Shown here: piece by piece, positions 5,557 to 19,378 of the stretch | Position numbering within the stretch: the stretch's first letter is position 1 | Layout of the letters: the number at the start of each line of letters is the position of its first letter | DNA from: an uncultured Bacteroidales bacterium | GTDB lineage: Bacteria > Bacteroidota > Bacteroidia > Bacteroidales > Paludibacteraceae | NCBI GenBank assembly: GCA_946187555.1 | Contig: CAMHQP010000004.1 | Location: forward strand, 1 to 59,350 | Direction of reading: 5' to 3' | DNA: 59,350 bases | The notes under the pieces: model-generated | Databases searched by the model: none | The model's input: the letters and a program-made list of their open reading frames with translations, nothing else | Told to the model about the DNA's origin: nothing | Position numbers and translations under genes: made by a program

Positions 5557-6498
5557 TTATAATGCTTTACCGGTTGCGTCGTACATCTTGTCGCCGCGGA
5601 TGATAACGAGCTGACCATCAATGATCTGCTTGCGAGCCTTTTCGGTTACGATGGTATTCTCGATAGATTGATTCTCGCTTCCCCAATCAATCGTATATGC
5701 ATCATAGGTAGCTTGATCTACCTTCTCTACCTCGATAGAGCCCTTGAAGGTGCACTTACGCATAATAAGATAGATGGTTTCACCTGCCGGTAATTGCCAT
5801 ACGTTGCTATTTTCGAAACCATTTGCCCAATACAAAGTAACACTGGTAGCATTCTCTCCAGCCCAACCTTTGGTCTTGTATTGATTGCCTTCCTCGTCTA
5901 TCATTACCACGTAAGAGATGTTTTGCTTTGCTGGATGTGAAGCAAGGGTACCCGACCAACGGCCACGAGCATCGAACATAAATTCCTGCAGTTGTTCTTG
6001 AATATTCCAATCACCACCTATCGAGCCCATCAACGCAAAGTCATGCCCCTCGCCGGACTCTTCGAGATCTTCGCCACCTGGGTTATCTCCACCACCGGGT
6101 TCATCGCCACCACCTTCACCGGGAGCAGCTACCCATTGTTCGGTAGCGTGTACATACATCTTACCATTGTACTCAGTCGCAAAAGTCCATGTGGAAATTG
6201 CCTGCTTCTGGCTTTTCCAATTATCACCATCATACAATTGGAACTGCATCACGCCTACACCGTCGTACATATCCGTATAAGTATACGTGTAAACCGGATC
6301 ATTGTTATAGGACATATTCGTCAGGGTCATGTTGTACTGATGCCATTCATCACCATCACCCTTAAAATTAACATTCAACTTAACGGTGTACGAACCGATT
6401 TCTGAGGCCGGAGCCGTGTAATAAACGGTGGTCTCTGTTGCTGCGAACATAACTACGCTGAACACAGCAGTCATCATCAAAGTAAAAATCTTTTTCAT
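5557..6498 (-). CDS. Secreted non-catalytic two-module protein, putative starch-binding accessory
   Basis: Signal peptide, aromatic-rich N-terminal module, GGGDEPGGGDNPGG linker, second module, tail QIIDGQLVIIRGDKMYDATGKAL; sits between amylases. Confidence 0.6.
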   Translation of the reverse strand: MKKIFTLMMTAVFSVVMFAATETTVYYTAPASEIGSYTVKLNVNFKGDGDEWHQYNMTLTNMSYNNDPVYTYTYTDMYDGVGVMQFQLYDGDNWKSQKQAISTWTFATEYNGKMYVHATEQWVAAPGEGGGDEPGGGDNPGGEDLEESGEGHDFALMGSIGGDWNIQEQLQEFMFDARGRWSGTLASHPAKQNISYVVMIDEEGNQYKTKGWAGENATSVTLYWANGFENSNVWQLPAGETIYLIMRKCTFKGSIEVEKVDQATYDAYTIDWGSENQSIENTIVTEKARKQIIDGQLVIIRGDKMYDATGKAL

Positions 6499-6516: not shown

Positions 6517-8367
6517 TTAGTAAATTTTTCTTCCTTGTGCATCGAACACATGCTCGCCACAACGAATATAAAGTTGTCCGTTCTCAATATACTTCTCGCC
6601 TTTCTGTTCGGATTGCACGTTCTCAATGCCCTGAGGGCCTGTGCCAGTATAGTACATTGCATAGTCCGTACCCTTGACTGCCTGCGTATACCCGGCGGGA
6701 GCCGCATCATTAGCCGCTGTACCGAGCATCAGTTTGACGCTACCGTACTTACCCTGCACCGTCGCGCGGTAGTATCCGCTACCGGACTCCTCCTGTACGG
6801 AACTCTCCGAATGAATACCTGCCATACGACGCGCGTTGATCATCGCTTTGATCTCGCTCTTGTACTTCACCCAATGCGGATAGAACACACACGGCACACC
6901 AGGCATGGAGAGCAGATACGCGTTACAACGCATCATCAGACTCTTGTCATTGATACTCGATCCGTCACGCTTATTCGCCACGTCATCATTATCGCTACGG
7001 TTGAACGTATCATGGTTATCGATAAACGTTACGGCATACTTGCTATAACCTTTTCCACGCAGACCTCCGTTCTTACATTTATCGTAACTCTTATAAAAGA
7101 TACCATCGCGGAACACATTGTATTTAGCAGCGAAATCAAACGCCAAATTATTCTTGCCCGCCTCGTCAATACGCGTCTTCAGTTCATTCGCATCACCTTT
7201 CCAATACTCCATGACGGAGAAATAGGGTTTGGCATTCGTGACATAGTCATTGATATGGCTTACATGATAACCGCCCGCTACATCAAAGCGGAAGCCATCA
7301 TAGTTCATCGTGTACTTAAGGAACTTCAGATAGGCGCGGCACATTTTCTGTACCGAATCATTCTTATGGTCAAAATCACGCGCACCGACGAAATTGGCAT
7401 CCGTACCATTCTGACCATCGTCATAATTGGGACCTAACTTACTTGCATATTTACCACCTTCTGCGGTGCTGGCTTCATCATCCTTGGTAATCCATTTGCT
7501 GTTCGGTTTAAAATAACCATATGTACCAAAGTCCTGATCAAAGAAATCGATCCAATTGCTCTTGTTTCCAGCATGGTTAATCACCACATCTGCCAACACA
7601 CGCGTACCGCCGTCATGGAGTGCACTGATCAAAGAGCGTAGGTCGTCTTCTCGTCCCATACTATTACGTTGATAGTAGTATTTGGTGGGAAGATATCCCA
7701 TACTGCTCGTCTTTGAGTTACACGAAGGAGCCAACCATACCAATTGGAAATTCTGCGAGATCTCGGATGCCTGAGATAATAGTACCGTCCACTTGGTTGT
7801 ACCATACGAATTGTCAACATCCGAATTCCAATAGAAAGCCTGCAGCATCACATCCGTACACTGACTCGGTACGGCAGTCTCAAAATCACCCGGAGTCACA
7901 GGATCTCCGCCACCTCCCGGAGTATCACCGCTGGTGTTGTACTTCATCCACTCGCCTGGGCAGACATTCGTACCTTGTCCCCAATCGGAGATCGAGTACA
8001 TATCCTTATCCGAAGGTATGGTCAAGTCAGCCGTCTTATTCCATATGTTGCCGTCATCCCACGTAGGAGAAGACATGGACGTGTTAAAACGGCAGATAAT
8101 TACTCTATCGCTGGCATCGCTGATAGTGGTTTGCCATATATTGCCGCTCACGCGGGTCATCCAACTAGTCCATTGGCCTTGACCGGAACCCTGCCAATGC
8201 CATGCCGCGAACTTATTCGCGTTATCTGCCTCCCACAGGGCATTTCCGCCTGTATCCAAGTACAGAGTCTTGGCGCTCGCATTAGAGGCGGCGGCCAAGA
8301 ACATCGTACATAACGCCGTTATGGACAATAACGAGGCGACCGTTGATGATAACTTTGTATACTTCAT
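6517..8367 (-). CDS. Secreted GH13 alpha-amylase
   Basis: LADVVINHAG, GFRFDVAGGYH, SVMEYWKGD, FIDNHDTFN; signal peptide MKYTKLSSTVASLLSITALCTMFLAAASNASA. Confidence 0.88.
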   Translation of the reverse strand: MKYTKLSSTVASLLSITALCTMFLAAASNASAKTLYLDTGGNALWEADNANKFAAWHWQGSGQGQWTSWMTRVSGNIWQTTISDASDRVIICRFNTSMSSPTWDDGNIWNKTADLTIPSDKDMYSISDWGQGTNVCPGEWMKYNTSGDTPGGGGDPVTPGDFETAVPSQCTDVMLQAFYWNSDVDNSYGTTKWTVLLSQASEISQNFQLVWLAPSCNSKTSSMGYLPTKYYYQRNSMGREDDLRSLISALHDGGTRVLADVVINHAGNKSNWIDFFDQDFGTYGYFKPNSKWITKDDEASTAEGGKYASKLGPNYDDGQNGTDANFVGARDFDHKNDSVQKMCRAYLKFLKYTMNYDGFRFDVAGGYHVSHINDYVTNAKPYFSVMEYWKGDANELKTRIDEAGKNNLAFDFAAKYNVFRDGIFYKSYDKCKNGGLRGKGYSKYAVTFIDNHDTFNRSDNDDVANKRDGSSINDKSLMMRCNAYLLSMPGVPCVFYPHWVKYKSEIKAMINARRMAGIHSESSVQEESGSGYYRATVQGKYGSVKLMLGTAANDAAPAGYTQAVKGTDYAMYYTGTGPQGIENVQSEQKGEKYIENGQLYIRCGEHVFDAQGRKIY

Positions 8368-11300
8368 GGTTCTTAATCGAATTAACTACTATTTCTTCTA
8401 ATCCTTCGTCGATCACGCCGTCGCAGTTAGAATCCACCACTGCCTTACCGCAGTTCGGATTCCACAGATAACAGGTATTCTCCGTTAGATAGATATCCTG
8501 CGTCTGCGGTTTCTTATTGCCTTCCGTGAAGATGACGTAGATCTCTTTCAGGTCTGCACTCATGGTATGCACATACCACTGTCCTTCCGTCCGAGTCCAT
8601 TTCATACCCGGCCATTTAGGACTCTTACCATCCAGTGAGTACGGTGTATCTTTGTACTTACCGTCCACTTTCACACGCGTGAACGCATATAAATAGAGGT
8701 CTTCCCATGCTTCCGGTTTGATGAACTTAACCGTCAACGGCCCCGATTGCGGTGCCTTATAGGTGTAAGTAGCCGTGCGTGTGGCTGTCCTTGTTTCCGT
8801 TATTGCGTCGTACGCAAACGCTTTCACCGTCGTGGTCTGGGTCACCTTGAAACTCGTCTGACCTACTGCCTGCTGCGATGCTGTCGTCGGTTCACTGCCA
8901 TCCGTGGTATAGTAAATCATTGCATTCTCTTTGCCGATGGCGTTGATGGAGACATTGACACCCTCTGCCTGGTCGCTGAAATAACCGCTCTCGGGACCCA
9001 CTGCGATATCAAACGCAGGATGCAAAATCGTCTCACAATCCATCAGCACTTCTTGGTTGGACGCGGTATCCTTACCTGCCATCCAGCCGTAGCATACGTC
9101 ATAATCGGTTACCAGATCATTCGAACGTACGTTGATACCACCACAGTCATCGCCCGAGTTGATACAGAAGTTCACCGAATCCATCGAAACATCGAACTCA
9201 TATGCGTACCAACCTTCTACATCTTGATAAATGCGTTGCCCCGGGTATGCACCCATGATGTTCTCCGATGCGTCTTCGCCCTGCTCATCTTTGTACGGTT
9301 TCCATGCATAGATATACACTTTTTCCCAGCTCTCCGGTTTGTCGAAGCGAACGATGATACCGCGTTGCAGCGGCTCACGATAGGTATAGGTGTACGTCTG
9401 CACTTTCGATTGCGCGCTACCACAAGCAGCCATGATCTTCAGTGTTGTCGTCTGCTTGAAGTTCAGCGGTCCCGTATAAACAGGCGAACTCGTCGTCGGA
9501 ACAGATCCATCCGTTGTATAATGGATGGTCGGCGTTGCGCAACTACCGCCAACGGCTTGAGCCGTTACGTTGATACCGGCAACCGCATCCTCAAAGAATG
9601 TGCTCGGTGTAACTATCAGACCCGGAGCGGCATCGCCTGTTGCGTTCACCCACATCTCATAACTCTCGTTAATCAAGTTGCCGTTATCATTAAACGTGCT
9701 GTACAGGCTGGCTACTTTAGTGTAACCATCAAAGTTACCTCCGGTCTTGGTACCCAAACATAAGATCAGATAACCGTTTTTACCTACAATAGTAGCTTGG
9801 TAACCCGTAGCACGCGAGCCGTCGCTATCCCAGTACTCGTCCTTCACTTCGCTCTCGCTATGTACGCCGGCCAAGTGACGCGCGTTGATCATGTCCTTGA
9901 TCTCGGCTTTGTACTTATACCAATGCGGGTAGAAGATACACGGTACACCCGGCATAGCGAGGATGAACGCATTAGCGCCCAACAGACGTGCCTTGATCTC
10001 CGGCTTCATCGAGTTACCACGGCCGCAGAACTCCAACTCATTATCTCCACGCATGAACATATCGTGGTTATCTACCCATGTCACAGCGTGTTTCTTCCAG
10101 TAGTCACTACCCGTGCCGTCATTAGCAATCAGACCGCGGCGACCTACATAGTTCCATCCCTGCATCGCATTGATACCATCGAACTTCAACGCGAAATCCA
10201 GCGCCATCAGATTCATCTCCGCGCTACGGATAGAGTTTCTCAGCGTCTCCACATTACCGTCATAATACTCCTCAAAAGCGATATACGGCTCCGATGCCTG
10301 GTTGTAGTTACTCATATGCCAGTTGTTATAACCGTCACCCTTATCGTAACGCCAACCATCATAATGCATCACGTTTTTCATCCATTTCAGATAAGCCTTG
10401 AACATCGCCTGCACCTCCTGGTTATCATGCGCCCAGTCGCGCGCTGCCTCCCAGTTGGCTCCATCGTCTGCACGCGAGTTCTTTGAATACCCCCAACAGT
10501 CGCCTGCCAACGTATCGACATTCGTAGAAGGATCATTCACCTCATCGTTGCTGGTGATAAAACTCGGCCCCGGTTCAAACAAACCGTACTCATCAAAGTC
10601 CTCAACCGCCATGTCGCACCAACCTGCCATCGCCTCGGCGTGGTTGATCACGATGTCGGCAACGACCTTCGTACCACTGTTATGGAACGTCGAGATCAGT
10701 TTTTCCAATTCCGCGCGGGTACCCCATGCCGAGTTCTGGTTACAGTATTGCTTCGGGTGATAACCCACTCCGCTTGCCAAGCCACTGGGCGGCAACCATA
10801 CGAGGTCAAAATACGCACCTATCTCACCAGCCTGTTTCTGCAGCGTTTTCCATTTGGTATCGCCGAAAGTCTGCGTACCGGCATGGGTCGAATCCACTTC
10901 GTACGAGTCATAGAAGAAAGCCTGCAGCAACACGTCCGGACACTCGCTCGGCACGCCTGTACCGCTCACAATCTCCTCCGTCTCACCTACGATAGTAACG
11001 CACAGATGACCGTCCACGACGCTCACCGTTATACTTCCCGTGCTTACCAATTTAATCGACACATTACCGTCATTATCCGCGCTATACCCCTGCGTACTAC
11101 AAGAGGCATCAACAGCATCAGCTCCCAGGATTATACCTTCCCAGTTACCTGTCGTCACCTTGAACTTATACGTTCCGGCTGCCAAGTCCGCAAAACTGAT
11201 CGTATTGTCGGGCATCTGCAAGTGATTGTCCCAATTGACACCGGGAAGTCCCTCGCCGGCAATGTAGTACGAAAGCGGCGCGGGTTCATACGCGTTCCAT

Positions 11301-11668
11301 TCTCCGGTACTGTACTTCGTGTCTTTCACCCAACCGGTAATCGTATAGCAGTTCTTGTCAGAAGGAATCTCCAGATCATACGTCTGATTCCAATACGTGC
11401 TCCAATCAAGACTAGCGCTGCCACCCGGCATACGAACAAAAATCACCTTGTCATTCCCGTCCGGAACCTCTACTCCGTACACGCCGACTCCGGCAAGATT
11501 CATCTTCAAGTCCTGCTCATTCGTACTTGTACCAGTCCAAGAGTGAGCAAAGAACACTGCTCCACCTTGATCCCAAAAAGTACTTCCGCCTGCATTAAGG
11601 TAAATCGTTTTGGCCTGCAAACTCATTGCACATACAAAGGTCGCAAAAATCAAAAAGAATCTCTTCAT
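8282..11668 (-). CDS. Secreted multidomain GH13 alpha-amylase with two chitobiase-C-like/CBM26-like module pairs
   Basis: VADIVINHAEA, GWRYDKGDGYN, FEEYYDG, WVDNHDMF; IHYTTDGSVPTTSSPVYTGPL and IYYTTDGSEPTTASQQA repeats each followed by a VRFDKPESWEKVYIYAW / VKFIKPEAWEDLYLYAF module. Confidence 0.88.
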   Translation of the reverse strand: MKRFFLIFATFVCAMSLQAKTIYLNAGGSTFWDQGGAVFFAHSWTGTSTNEQDLKMNLAGVGVYGVEVPDGNDKVIFVRMPGGSASLDWSTYWNQTYDLEIPSDKNCYTITGWVKDTKYSTGEWNAYEPAPLSYYIAGEGLPGVNWDNHLQMPDNTISFADLAAGTYKFKVTTGNWEGIILGADAVDASCSTQGYSADNDGNVSIKLVSTGSITVSVVDGHLCVTIVGETEEIVSGTGVPSECPDVLLQAFFYDSYEVDSTHAGTQTFGDTKWKTLQKQAGEIGAYFDLVWLPPSGLASGVGYHPKQYCNQNSAWGTRAELEKLISTFHNSGTKVVADIVINHAEAMAGWCDMAVEDFDEYGLFEPGPSFITSNDEVNDPSTNVDTLAGDCWGYSKNSRADDGANWEAARDWAHDNQEVQAMFKAYLKWMKNVMHYDGWRYDKGDGYNNWHMSNYNQASEPYIAFEEYYDGNVETLRNSIRSAEMNLMALDFALKFDGINAMQGWNYVGRRGLIANDGTGSDYWKKHAVTWVDNHDMFMRGDNELEFCGRGNSMKPEIKARLLGANAFILAMPGVPCIFYPHWYKYKAEIKDMINARHLAGVHSESEVKDEYWDSDGSRATGYQATIVGKNGYLILCLGTKTGGNFDGYTKVASLYSTFNDNGNLINESYEMWVNATGDAAPGLIVTPSTFFEDAVAGINVTAQAVGGSCATPTIHYTTDGSVPTTSSPVYTGPLNFKQTTTLKIMAACGSAQSKVQTYTYTYREPLQRGIIVRFDKPESWEKVYIYAWKPYKDEQGEDASENIMGAYPGQRIYQDVEGWYAYEFDVSMDSVNFCINSGDDCGGINVRSNDLVTDYDVCYGWMAGKDTASNQEVLMDCETILHPAFDIAVGPESGYFSDQAEGVNVSINAIGKENAMIYYTTDGSEPTTASQQAVGQTSFKVTQTTTVKAFAYDAITETRTATRTATYTYKAPQSGPLTVKFIKPEAWEDLYLYAFTRVKVDGKYKDTPYSLDGKSPKWPGMKWTRTEGQWYVHTMSADLKEIYVIFTEGNKKPQTQDIYLTENTCYLWNPNCGKAVVDSNCDGVIDEGLEEIVVNSIKNHEVYKVIINGRLVIVHNGVMYDVLGRRL

Positions 11669-15867: not shown

Positions 15868-16868
15868 TAGAGCAGTTATTAGCATATGGATGGTGGGTCG
15901 GTGCGATAGTCATCGTGCTGGGCTTTGTGGCGCTGGTGAAGGGTGCGGACTGTCTGGTGGACGGCGCATCGGCGATTGCCAAGCGCTTCGGCATCAGCGA
16001 TCTGGTGATCGGTCTGACGGTAGTGGCGTTCGGAACCTCGATGCCGGAGTTTGTGGTGAATATGGTCTCCGTAGCGGAAGGTTCGACCGATCTGGCCATC
16101 ACCAATATCTTAGGTTCGAACATCATCAACACCTTCGTTATCCTCGGTCTGACCGCCTTGGTCTATCCTATCGTTTCGCAGAAACGCAGTCGTGATTTCG
16201 ATATCCCGCTTTCTATCATCGCGGGATTCTTGGTGTTGATCTTCGTGAGCATCGAGTTACCCTTCGGCGAGTGCGGCAAGGGTATCGGTCGTATGGGTGG
16301 TATTACGCTGTTAGTGCTCTTCTGCTATTTCCTGTATAACACCTTCCGTCATGCCAAGGATCATCCGGAGGAAGGATTAGGGATTAGTGATGAGGGATTA
16401 GGGATTAGCGAGATCCCTGTACGCCGAGCCATCGGATTAGTCATTGGCGGACTGGTAGGGTTGGTAGTAGGCGGCGAACTGATTGTGAAGAGTGCCGTCG
16501 ATATTGCGACCCGTATGGGGGTGAGCGAAGCGATCATCGGTCTGACGATTGTGGCATTGGGGACATCGTTGCCGGAGCTCGCGACCTCGGTGATAGCGGC
16601 TGCGAAACATAACAGCGATATTGCGTTGGGTAATGTGTTCGGCAGCAATATCTTCAATGTATTCTTTGTGTTAGCGACGAGTGCAACCGTTCGTCCGTTG
16701 CCTGCGTACGACGGCATCGAATTAGACGCGGTGATGGCTGCCTTAGGCAGTATCATTGTATGGCTGGCGGTGAAGACGAACCACGAACGGAAGATTCAAC
16801 GATGGGCAGGTGCACTGCTGCTGTTAATCTATGCCGGTTATTTGACATACAGATTGATTCACATTTAA
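15864..16868 (+). CDS. CaCA-family calcium/sodium antiporter (YrbG-like)
   Basis: Two alpha repeats: VVAFGTSMPEFVVN and IVALGTSLPELATSV. Confidence 0.88.
   Translation: MIEQLLAYGWWVGAIVIVLGFVALVKGADCLVDGASAIAKRFGISDLVIGLTVVAFGTSMPEFVVNMVSVAEGSTDLAITNILGSNIINTFVILGLTALVYPIVSQKRSRDFDIPLSIIAGFLVLIFVSIELPFGECGKGIGRMGGITLLVLFCYFLYNTFRHAKDHPEEGLGISDEGLGISEIPVRRAIGLVIGGLVGLVVGGELIVKSAVDIATRMGVSEAIIGLTIVALGTSLPELATSVIAAAKHNSDIALGNVFGSNIFNVFFVLATSATVRPLPAYDGIELDAVMAALGSIIVWLAVKTNHERKIQRWAGALLLLIYAGYLTYRLIHI
16374..16408. repeat. 7-nt tandem array in CaCA antiporter
   Basis: GGATTAG GGATTAG TGATGAG GGATTAG GGATTAG. Confidence 0.85.
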
Positions 16869-16879
16869 TATTTAATAGT

Positions 16880-19378
16880 ATGAAAAAACTTCTCACTCTT
16901 TTTGCAGGATTGCTGCTTTGTTTGCAGCTGACCGCAGCGCTGCGCACCCAGGAAGAGGCGATGCGTATCGCAGCTTCTTTTAGAACAGACAACCAAGTTG
17001 CCCACCTTCCGGCGCCTCAACCGCAAGTGCTCACTCACTGCTTCACGGTGAAGCAGGCGAGTGGTCAACCGGCATTCTATGTCTTCAACCGCGGCGAGGA
17101 GAACGGCTTCGTTCTCATCTCTGCCGAAGACCGCACCCGTACGGTGTTGGGTTATTCGGATGCCGGTCATTGGGATGCAGACAATATACCGGACGCTTTG
17201 CGCGCATGGATGGATATCTACAGCCACGATATCGCTCGTGTAGCTTCAGCTCCTGCCGCTCCGTCCGCTCCAATCAAACGTGCGCAGGCGAAGACAGCGC
17301 AGCAGTACACGCCTATCAGTCCGATCTGTCAGACCCTATGGGGACAAAGAGCGCCGTATAACCTCTGGTGCCCGAACTATAACGGTTCGCATTGCGTGAC
17401 GGGTTGTGTAGCGACAGCCGCAGCCCAGATCATGAAGGTACATAACTACCCTACGCAAGGTACGGGTACGTCTTCGTACAAATGGCTGAGTGATACCGGC
17501 GATTCGATCACCCTTTCGGTGGATTATGGAAACACAACCTATGACTGGTCACACATGTTGAACGACTACAACTACTCGTATGGTACAGCGGAAGAGCAGG
17601 AAGCCGTAGCTATTTTGATGCACCACTGCGGTGTTGCGAGTGAGATGAGTTACGGAACGGGGGCGAGTGGTACATCCAATAATTTTATGTTACGAGGCAT
17701 GGTGGAGCATTTCGGTTATGACCCGGGTGTACAAGTGCTGATCAAAGACTGTATGACCGATGATGATTTCGTAGATGGCATTGTGTCCGAGCTTCAGCAG
17801 GGTCGTCCGGTTATGTTCAGCGCCCGTACGGTCAATGACGAGGGTCATGCTTTTGTAGGCGATGGTGTAGATGCCGACGGTCTGATTCATATCAACTGGG
17901 GTTGGAATGGTGCCTGCGACGGTTATTTCCAGGTATCAGCCATGGATCCGGAGAACCAAGGCACGGGTGGTTCGGTAACCGATGAAGCCTTCACCGAGCA
18001 GGTTCTCGCCTACACGCATATCCGTCCTATGGCAGGTGGTTCGTACAACTATAACTTTGTGAGCGACAAGGTATATCCGCACCAAACAAGCGTAGATCGT
18101 TCAGAACAAAACTGGGTAGCCCTGCAGATGGATGTCTTCAATAACCTATCCATCCTCACTTTATCCGGTACTTCTGCGGCACTGAAGGTGTATGATGCGA
18201 ACGGTAATTTCCTTACTTACTGTGACTATGACGACTGGGGTTATGACGGTTTACAACCCGGTTACTTCTATCGTTCTAACTATGCCATCGGCTACGTATC
18301 CGATCTGCCGAACGGTAATTACTACGTGAGTCCGGTGGTGAAGATCAACGGCCAGTATTATCCGGTACAAGTACGAGGGTACACCGACTACCGCTGTCCG
18401 ATGCAAGTGACCACCAGCACTATTTCCTTCACCGAGCCGGAGCCGGATCTCAACCCGGAGAAAGCGATCAACGCGTATGATTTTACGAAGCTCAACTCGT
18501 ATTACTACCCAAGCTATTCGGGTAATAATTTCCAATACTGGACTCTTCAGTTGAGCACGGAAGATTTCTATGAAAATAATGCTGAAGACCAGATGTTGCT
18601 CTATTTCGCCATCTATACGTCCTCAGCCAATTCGGTCATCGGCTCTTTCCTCAACGACAACACAGCGCTCTATAACATATACTCTTATGCTGCCTACAAA
18701 GGGAACATCAGCTCGTACGAATCGGTAGCACTTGAGGATGCCGGCTTGACCATCGCGTACAATAGCGTGAGTGATGCCTATACGGTATCCTACTTCGTAG
18801 TGGTAAACGGAACTACATATGTCGACGAGGCGGTTCTACCGATGGACAAAGTGTGGGCAGGCTACGGAGAAGCATACGGATCTCATGACAAATACGATAA
18901 TATCACGGTGGACAACACGCTCTATACCGGCATCACAGTCAGCCAAGCGTTGGAGATGCTCGGCGCGAACGAGATTGGTTGGATATCGGCTATCCCTTAT
19001 ATCGTAGAAGGTGAGATCTCCTCCATAGTAAACACGCCGGCGCAGATAGCCCAGCGCGGAAACTGCCGTTTGTATATCTCGGACGGGGAGAACAATCTGT
19101 ACTGCTATAATGCCAAGTGGTTCAATAATCAGTCTTTCCAGACGGGTCATGAGATTGCTGTGGGCGGACAGGCTGCTATCATCGGTCAACTCTGCAACTA
19201 CGATGCCAACACCAAGGAGATAGGCAACTGCTATTTCTACGACTACAACGAGCCAACCGGTATCGAGCAGACAACGGACGACAAGACGTCAGTACAGAAA
19301 TTTGTTCGCAACGGACAGATCTTCATCCTGCGCAACGGCAAGACGTACACCATGCAGGGTGCAATAGTGAACGAGTAA
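16880..19378 (+). CDS. Secreted C10-family cysteine peptidase (streptopain-like); start trimmed
   Basis: CVTGCVATAAAQIMKVHNYP, GHAFVGDGVDADGLIHINWGWNG; tail KFVRNGQIFILRNGKTYTMQGAIVNE. Confidence 0.85.
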   Translation: MKKLLTLFAGLLLCLQLTAALRTQEEAMRIAASFRTDNQVAHLPAPQPQVLTHCFTVKQASGQPAFYVFNRGEENGFVLISAEDRTRTVLGYSDAGHWDADNIPDALRAWMDIYSHDIARVASAPAAPSAPIKRAQAKTAQQYTPISPICQTLWGQRAPYNLWCPNYNGSHCVTGCVATAAAQIMKVHNYPTQGTGTSSYKWLSDTGDSITLSVDYGNTTYDWSHMLNDYNYSYGTAEEQEAVAILMHHCGVASEMSYGTGASGTSNNFMLRGMVEHFGYDPGVQVLIKDCMTDDDFVDGIVSELQQGRPVMFSARTVNDEGHAFVGDGVDADGLIHINWGWNGACDGYFQVSAMDPENQGTGGSVTDEAFTEQVLAYTHIRPMAGGSYNYNFVSDKVYPHQTSVDRSEQNWVALQMDVFNNLSILTLSGTSAALKVYDANGNFLTYCDYDDWGYDGLQPGYFYRSNYAIGYVSDLPNGNYYVSPVVKINGQYYPVQVRGYTDYRCPMQVTTSTISFTEPEPDLNPEKAINAYDFTKLNSYYYPSYSGNNFQYWTLQLSTEDFYENNAEDQMLLYFAIYTSSANSVIGSFLNDNTALYNIYSYAAYKGNISSYESVALEDAGLTIAYNSVSDAYTVSYFVVVNGTTYVDEAVLPMDKVWAGYGEAYGSHDKYDNITVDNTLYTGITVSQALEMLGANEIGWISAIPYIVEGEISSIVNTPAQIAQRGNCRLYISDGENNLYCYNAKWFNNQSFQTGHEIAVGGQAAIIGQLCNYDANTKEIGNCYFYDYNEPTGIEQTTDDKTSVQKFVRNGQIFILRNGKTYTMQGAIVNE

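Follow-up and report, generated by a model that had tools for sequence, protein, structure and literature searches.

The end of one amylase gene encodes the predicted signal peptide of the next

We analyzed a stretch of 59,350 nucleotides (nt) from an uncultured Bacteroidales bacterium of the Paludibacteraceae (GenBank assembly GCA_946187555.1, contig CAMHQP010000004.1), here called the window, in which two co-directional GH13 amylase genes on the minus strand, here named gene 1 and gene 2, have 86 nt in common (8282..8367). We are highly confident that this is a genuine and conserved same-strand overlap, in which the C-terminal tail of the first amylase has been overprinted in the +1 frame by the Sec signal peptide of the second. 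Gene 2 is read in the +1 frame relative to gene 1 across the overlap; one frame carries the 28 C-terminal residues of gene 1 and its stop codon, and the other carries the 28 N-terminal residues of gene 2. The dual coding of tail and signal peptide, which an initial annotation made from the DNA letters and a list of open reading frames (ORFs) had proposed, is strongly supported by its conservation in 16 species, by constraint on synonymous sites, and by control tails. The coordinates of that annotation and its readings of the two frames were correct, the in-frame TAG that it had noted seven codons upstream of gene 2 was found, and its alignment of the mature N-terminus of gene 2 with the paralog holds.

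The predicted signal peptide of gene 2, 28 of whose 32 residues lie within the overlap, has by inspection and hydropathy a positive N-region, a hydrophobic core, and small residues at positions -3 and -1. Judging from sequence, we infer that gene 2 is translated from its own ATG and that its product is exported by Sec and cleaved. Domain searches found further modules in gene 1, namely CBM26 and Fn3-associated/CHB_HEX_C.

The overlap is conserved in separately assembled genomes

The comparison covered a sample of 178 genomes of the genus, whose named relatives belong to uncultured Bacteroidales and Paludibacteraceae and come mostly from the rumen or herbivore gut; the gene 1–gene 2 junction was compared at 47 loci, including the window. 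The overlap is present in 16 of the 178 genomes, window included, and the position of the ATG differs among them by no more than a few codons. Its length is 86 nt in most cases, and 83, 95, or 104 nt in five where the first ATG is slightly shifted. A profile of the +1 peptide, searched in the 178 genus members and in 358 family members, retrieved these 16 genomes and nothing further at E ~1e-15 or better. Profile matches beyond these species were rejected: at least three of them (L144, L146, and L148) belong to the tails of other genes, and in L144 and L146 the +1 frame is closed.

Most long same-strand overlaps can be traced to a frameshift in assembly or sequencing or to a start predicted wrongly, and the initial annotation had named a frameshift at this place as a danger to its proposal. 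The frameshift is ruled out by the finding of the same arrangement, with both frames intact, in 16 genomes that were each assembled separately. A wrong start would leave gene 2 with no other usable signal peptide; because the TAG closes the frame seven codons upstream and the mature part (KTLYLDTGG) follows directly after the overlap, no other start yields a complete one. We therefore regard an artifact of either kind as extremely improbable. Nor did either frame arise by chance as an ORF, given that the tail has ~60 further matches in the genome and that the overlapping genes are found together again in 15 more species.

At the remaining 31 of the 47 junctions, the genes are separated or overlap by at most 11 nt. 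In most of them, gene 2 is preceded by a usual signal peptide of the MKK or MRK type, and at several loci its mature start can be aligned with that of gene 2 in the overlap genomes. Relatives with clearly separated genes, which the initial annotation had listed as evidence that would count against it, thus do occur, but mostly with a different signal peptide, and they show that the architecture has changed without refuting the overlap.

In all 16 overlap species, the 28 codons of the +1 frame are open, core residues Leu19-Cys20 never vary, and just 3' of the gene 1 stop, outside gene 1, there is an [AL]-x-[AG] cleavage motif (AxA-type); the initial Met is followed by a basic Lys or Arg in nearly all of them. 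The hydropathy over 12 residues, 1.96–2.59 across these species, is inside the range for gene 2 signal peptides at loci lacking the overlap. The choice of the gene 1 stop, TAA versus TGA, determines whether Asn/Lys or Asp/Glu stands within the signal peptide. In one genome, G161 (locus L102), gene 1 has the same tail, and 14 nt downstream lies a separate signal peptide for gene 2. The copy within the tail has decayed in this genome, with GTG in place of ATG, a Gln in the core, the cleavage motif gone, and the hydropathy at the null level.

These features bear on a possible programmed +1 frameshifting from gene 1, which would produce a fusion of the two enzymes and make the likeness to a signal peptide incidental. 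The two frames are indeed adjacent and jointly open over the overlap, as this explanation would have it; a fusion, however, needs neither the ATG found in 16 of 16 species, nor the Lys/Arg that mostly follows it, nor the hydrophobic core and cleavage motif, and in G161 the ATG and the core are lost where gene 2 has a separate signal peptide. We consider frameshifting very unlikely.

Codon choice in the tail is constrained by the second frame

Reduced synonymous variation in relatives, which the initial annotation had suggested looking for, was found in the overlap, where the fraction of shared residues using the same codon is 0.67, compared with 0.50 over the remainder of gene 1. This value exceeds those of all 273 comparable windows of 28 codons, the highest of which is 0.64; column resampling gives p = 0.0007. 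In gene 1, the base diversity is 0.57 bits at the first codon position, 0.28 at the second, and 0.87 at the third. Over the 16 sequences, 461 transversions that are synonymous in gene 1 are possible, and of the 151 (about a third) that would put a stop in gene 2, none occurs.

Null models point in the same direction. When tail codons were redrawn from the gene's own usage, the +1 frame was open in 1.5% of the draws for the window and in 0.1–7% for the 16 overlap species. In a model that assumes a tail only, codons were redrawn until pairs reached the observed synonymous divergence, so that shared ancestry is allowed for; over 11 lineages, a mean of 4.8 were open and none of 4000 runs had all 11 open, versus 11 of 11 observed. 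Among 44 control tails of the genome that are free of an overlap, the +1 frame is open in eight, none of which begins with ATG or is as hydrophobic, and pyrimidines occupy on average 14.9 of 28 wobble positions (maximum 22), versus 24 of 28 in the overlap. The control tail of gene 3 has an open +1 frame that is only weakly hydrophobic and lacks an ATG.

Several points speak against the dual-coding interpretation. The core encoded in the overlap is rich in Ser and Thr, with a mean hydrophobicity below that of the signal peptides of orthologues lacking the overlap. The overlap is also patchy on the gene 1, gene 2, and marker trees (the latter including an ileS tree), requiring 4–8 changes. Finally, a more recent shared ancestry of the segment could explain part of the codon conservation, for which the simulation at matched divergence allows. 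The patchiness of the segment, together with an apparent exchange of tail types between orthologues, would also suit a source of the nucleotide conservation other than a second protein, namely an RNA or DNA element or a gene conversion that recently affected the tail. However, the overlap sequences differ at about a third of the codons for the same residue, yet gene 2 is open in every lineage, and no conserved RNA structure was seen in the overlap (covariation term -0.08, z = -0.07). We give this explanation very little credence, and dual coding of a tail and a signal peptide is by far the better account of the locus.

Phase and translation of gene 2

The +1 phase is well suited to such an overprinting. 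In it, the wobble base of a gene 1 codon, which is free to vary, is the second base of a gene 2 codon, the base that sets hydrophobicity, and Val, Ile, or Leu codons ending in a pyrimidine are read mostly as Leu, Phe, or Ser. Tail strands built of such codons therefore give a +1 sequence rich in Leu, Ser, Thr, and Ala and resembling a signal peptide. The reading of the tail as an apolar sequence agrees with the robustness of hydrophobicity to frameshifting, described as a statistical property of whole proteomes (PMC7084103).

The initial annotation had regarded the two genes as probably translationally coupled. Termination-reinitiation acts over a few to ~20 nt (PMC10666635), and since the start of gene 2 lies 86 nt 5' of the gene 1 stop, outside this range, coupling of this kind is unsupported. 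Most likely, ribosomes initiate on gene 2 independently, at a site inside gene 1.

The signal peptide may have been born by overprinting

Overprinting of the tail is the most likely source of the signal peptide. The tail probably came first: its family occurs widely, unlike the signal peptide, its homologues in the genome mostly have a closed +1 frame, and unrelated tails, when read in the +1 frame, give weak matches to the signal-peptide profile. In a plausible sequence of events, the spacer and the old signal peptide between the genes would have been lost by a deletion, placing the mature part of gene 2 ~10–13 nt past the gene 1 stop, and a new start would have been supplied by an ATG formed where two tail codons meet ([HND/A]AT GA.).

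On a marker tree, G161 groups with G172, which lacks the overlap, inside the main overlap clade (90%), and this nested position suggests loss. The patchy distribution would be compatible with a single gain and later losses, with horizontal transfer, or with recombination of the segment, and a single clean origin was rejected as unsupported by the gene trees or the marker trees. The mature N-terminus that follows the signal peptide varies among the overlap species, being of the KTLYL- or the YGI-type, which means that modules were exchanged just 3' of the signal peptide. On balance, the sequence comparisons lead us to favor, with moderate confidence, a de novo birth, in which a Sec signal peptide was overprinted on the +1 frame of the neighbor's tail, replaced the ordinary one of the enzyme, and was maintained by selection on both frames in part of the genus. 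If this is true, the tail family, with ~60 genomic copies, would be raw material for further signal peptides.

The tail family and other features of the window

A search with the tail profile gave 62 matches in the genome at E<=1, corresponding to about 60 homologues. The initial annotation had proposed a sorting tail, and the number of copies together with a gene for a PorU-type sortase of the type IX secretion system (T9SS; NF033707, 1006 bits) is in favor of it, but the gene 1 tail matched no sorting-domain model of NCBIfam or Pfam. The T9SS type A sorting domain TIGR04183 had no match in either amylase (NCBIfam, E<=1); eight such domains score above the cut-off elsewhere in the genome and none at this locus. 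A role as a sorting element is plausible from the position and the number of the tails.

The tail follows roughly the pattern K-x-I-x-N-G-Q-L-x-I-x-R-x-G-x-x-Y-x-x-x-G and stands on many large, probably secreted proteins; it had no match among curated families. In this genome, which also encodes the T9SS sortase, the family is far commoner than TIGR04183 domains, and the window holds copies at 2846-2923, 5560-5640, 6523-6603, and 19292-19369. Gene 1 orthologues at loci lacking the overlap (L032, L033, L037, L038, L040, L095, L101, and others) mostly end in a second type of tail, PMYNVLGQxVxxxYxGVVIQNGxKY; with two types at the ends of orthologues, tails seem to have been swapped between them.

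Several other long overlaps at the compared loci, such as pairs of 109 nt and 85 nt in the window, are presumed mis-starts, because a later internal ATG looks like the true start and the overlap contains no signal peptide. The 109-nt case concerns a C10-family peptidase with a Spi inhibitor domain and a tail of the same family as gene 1 (16760-19378), whose listed start lies within an upstream exchanger gene and whose likely start is a later MKKLLTLF. At locus L043 (G035), ORFs of 795 and 246 amino acids (aa) show a 107-nt overlap of a tail with the next ORF, which lacks a signal peptide; this is possibly a mis-start as well. Two adjacent genes at 1527-2840, MHIAIAGNIGCGKTT and MYIAIAGNIGAGKTT, whose motif suggests that they are deoxynucleoside-kinase-like, are apparently a tandem duplication.

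Table 1. Coordinates in the window of the overlap, its two genes, and associated features
Feature	Position	Strand	Basis or remark
Gene 1, secreted GH13 alpha-amylase, 1128 aa, C-terminal tail	8282..11668	-	ORF and domain searches
Gene 2, secreted GH13 alpha-amylase, 616 aa, start ATG 8367..8365	6517..8367	-	ORF and domain searches
Dual-coding overlap, +1 phase	8282..8367	-	Both frames open; kept in 16 species
Gene 1 C-terminal tail HEVYKVIINGRLVIVHNGVMYDVLGRRL, candidate secretion/sorting tail	8285..8368	-	Best of 62 tail-profile matches in the genome
Predicted Sec signal peptide of gene 2, MKYTKLSSTVASLLSITALCTMFLAAASNASA	8272..8367	-	Cleavage expected after A32
Gene 1 stop TAA	8284..8282	-	Sequence reading
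In-frame TAG, 7 codons 5' of the gene 2 ATG	8386..8388	-	Sequence reading
Gene 3, 313 aa, secreted, same tail family, no overlap	5557..6498	-	Control tail

Comparison with known overlaps and export signals

Long same-strand overlaps in bacteria are usually dismissed as annotation errors, and the present one, of 86 nt, is kept in 16 species. The locus comes with natural controls, namely sister loci lacking the overlap and one decayed copy, and it would offer a clear case of an export signal arising from existing coding DNA, as well as an example of a phase in which the wobble bases of the upstream gene can set the hydrophobicity of the downstream signal. It is also a warning that gene callers may mis-start the genes of such overlaps. 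In a limited literature search, we found no precedent for a signal peptide overlapping the 3' end of an upstream gene.

A survey of 338 genomes reported no genuine co-directional overlap of more than 60 bp, the longest real one being holD-rimI, of 56 bp (PMC2478687). This enterobacterial pair is likewise a conserved co-directional overlap of two cellular genes, but it spans 32–56 bp, whereas the 86 nt described here hold a tail and an export signal. The short overlaps of 1–4 nt in operons, with termination-reinitiation (PMC10666635), resemble our case in joining adjacent same-strand genes in an operon-like array; at 86 nt, far past the reach reported for termination-reinitiation, our overlap is not a coupling device of that sort. 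The robustness of hydrophobicity to frameshifting (PMC7084103) accounts for the tendency of a hydrophobic tail to remain apolar in the +1 frame, but it is a proteome-wide statistic, whereas here a conserved locus appears to exploit it. Gain and loss of signal peptides among bacterial orthologues (PMC5952966) similarly concerns orthologues with differing N-terminal export signals; that paper names acquisition of an N-terminal region or gradual mutation, in contrast to the overprinting of a neighbor's coding DNA proposed here.

The nearest functional parallel is the Rz/Rz1 pair of phage two-component spanins (PMC6139136), in which the export signal of an envelope protein lies out of frame, often +1, inside another gene. 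Those are phage lysis genes with lipoprotein signals, and one is often wholly embedded in the other; the pair described here consists of two bacterial enzyme genes with no part in lysis, which share only a C-terminal tail and a predicted Sec signal peptide.
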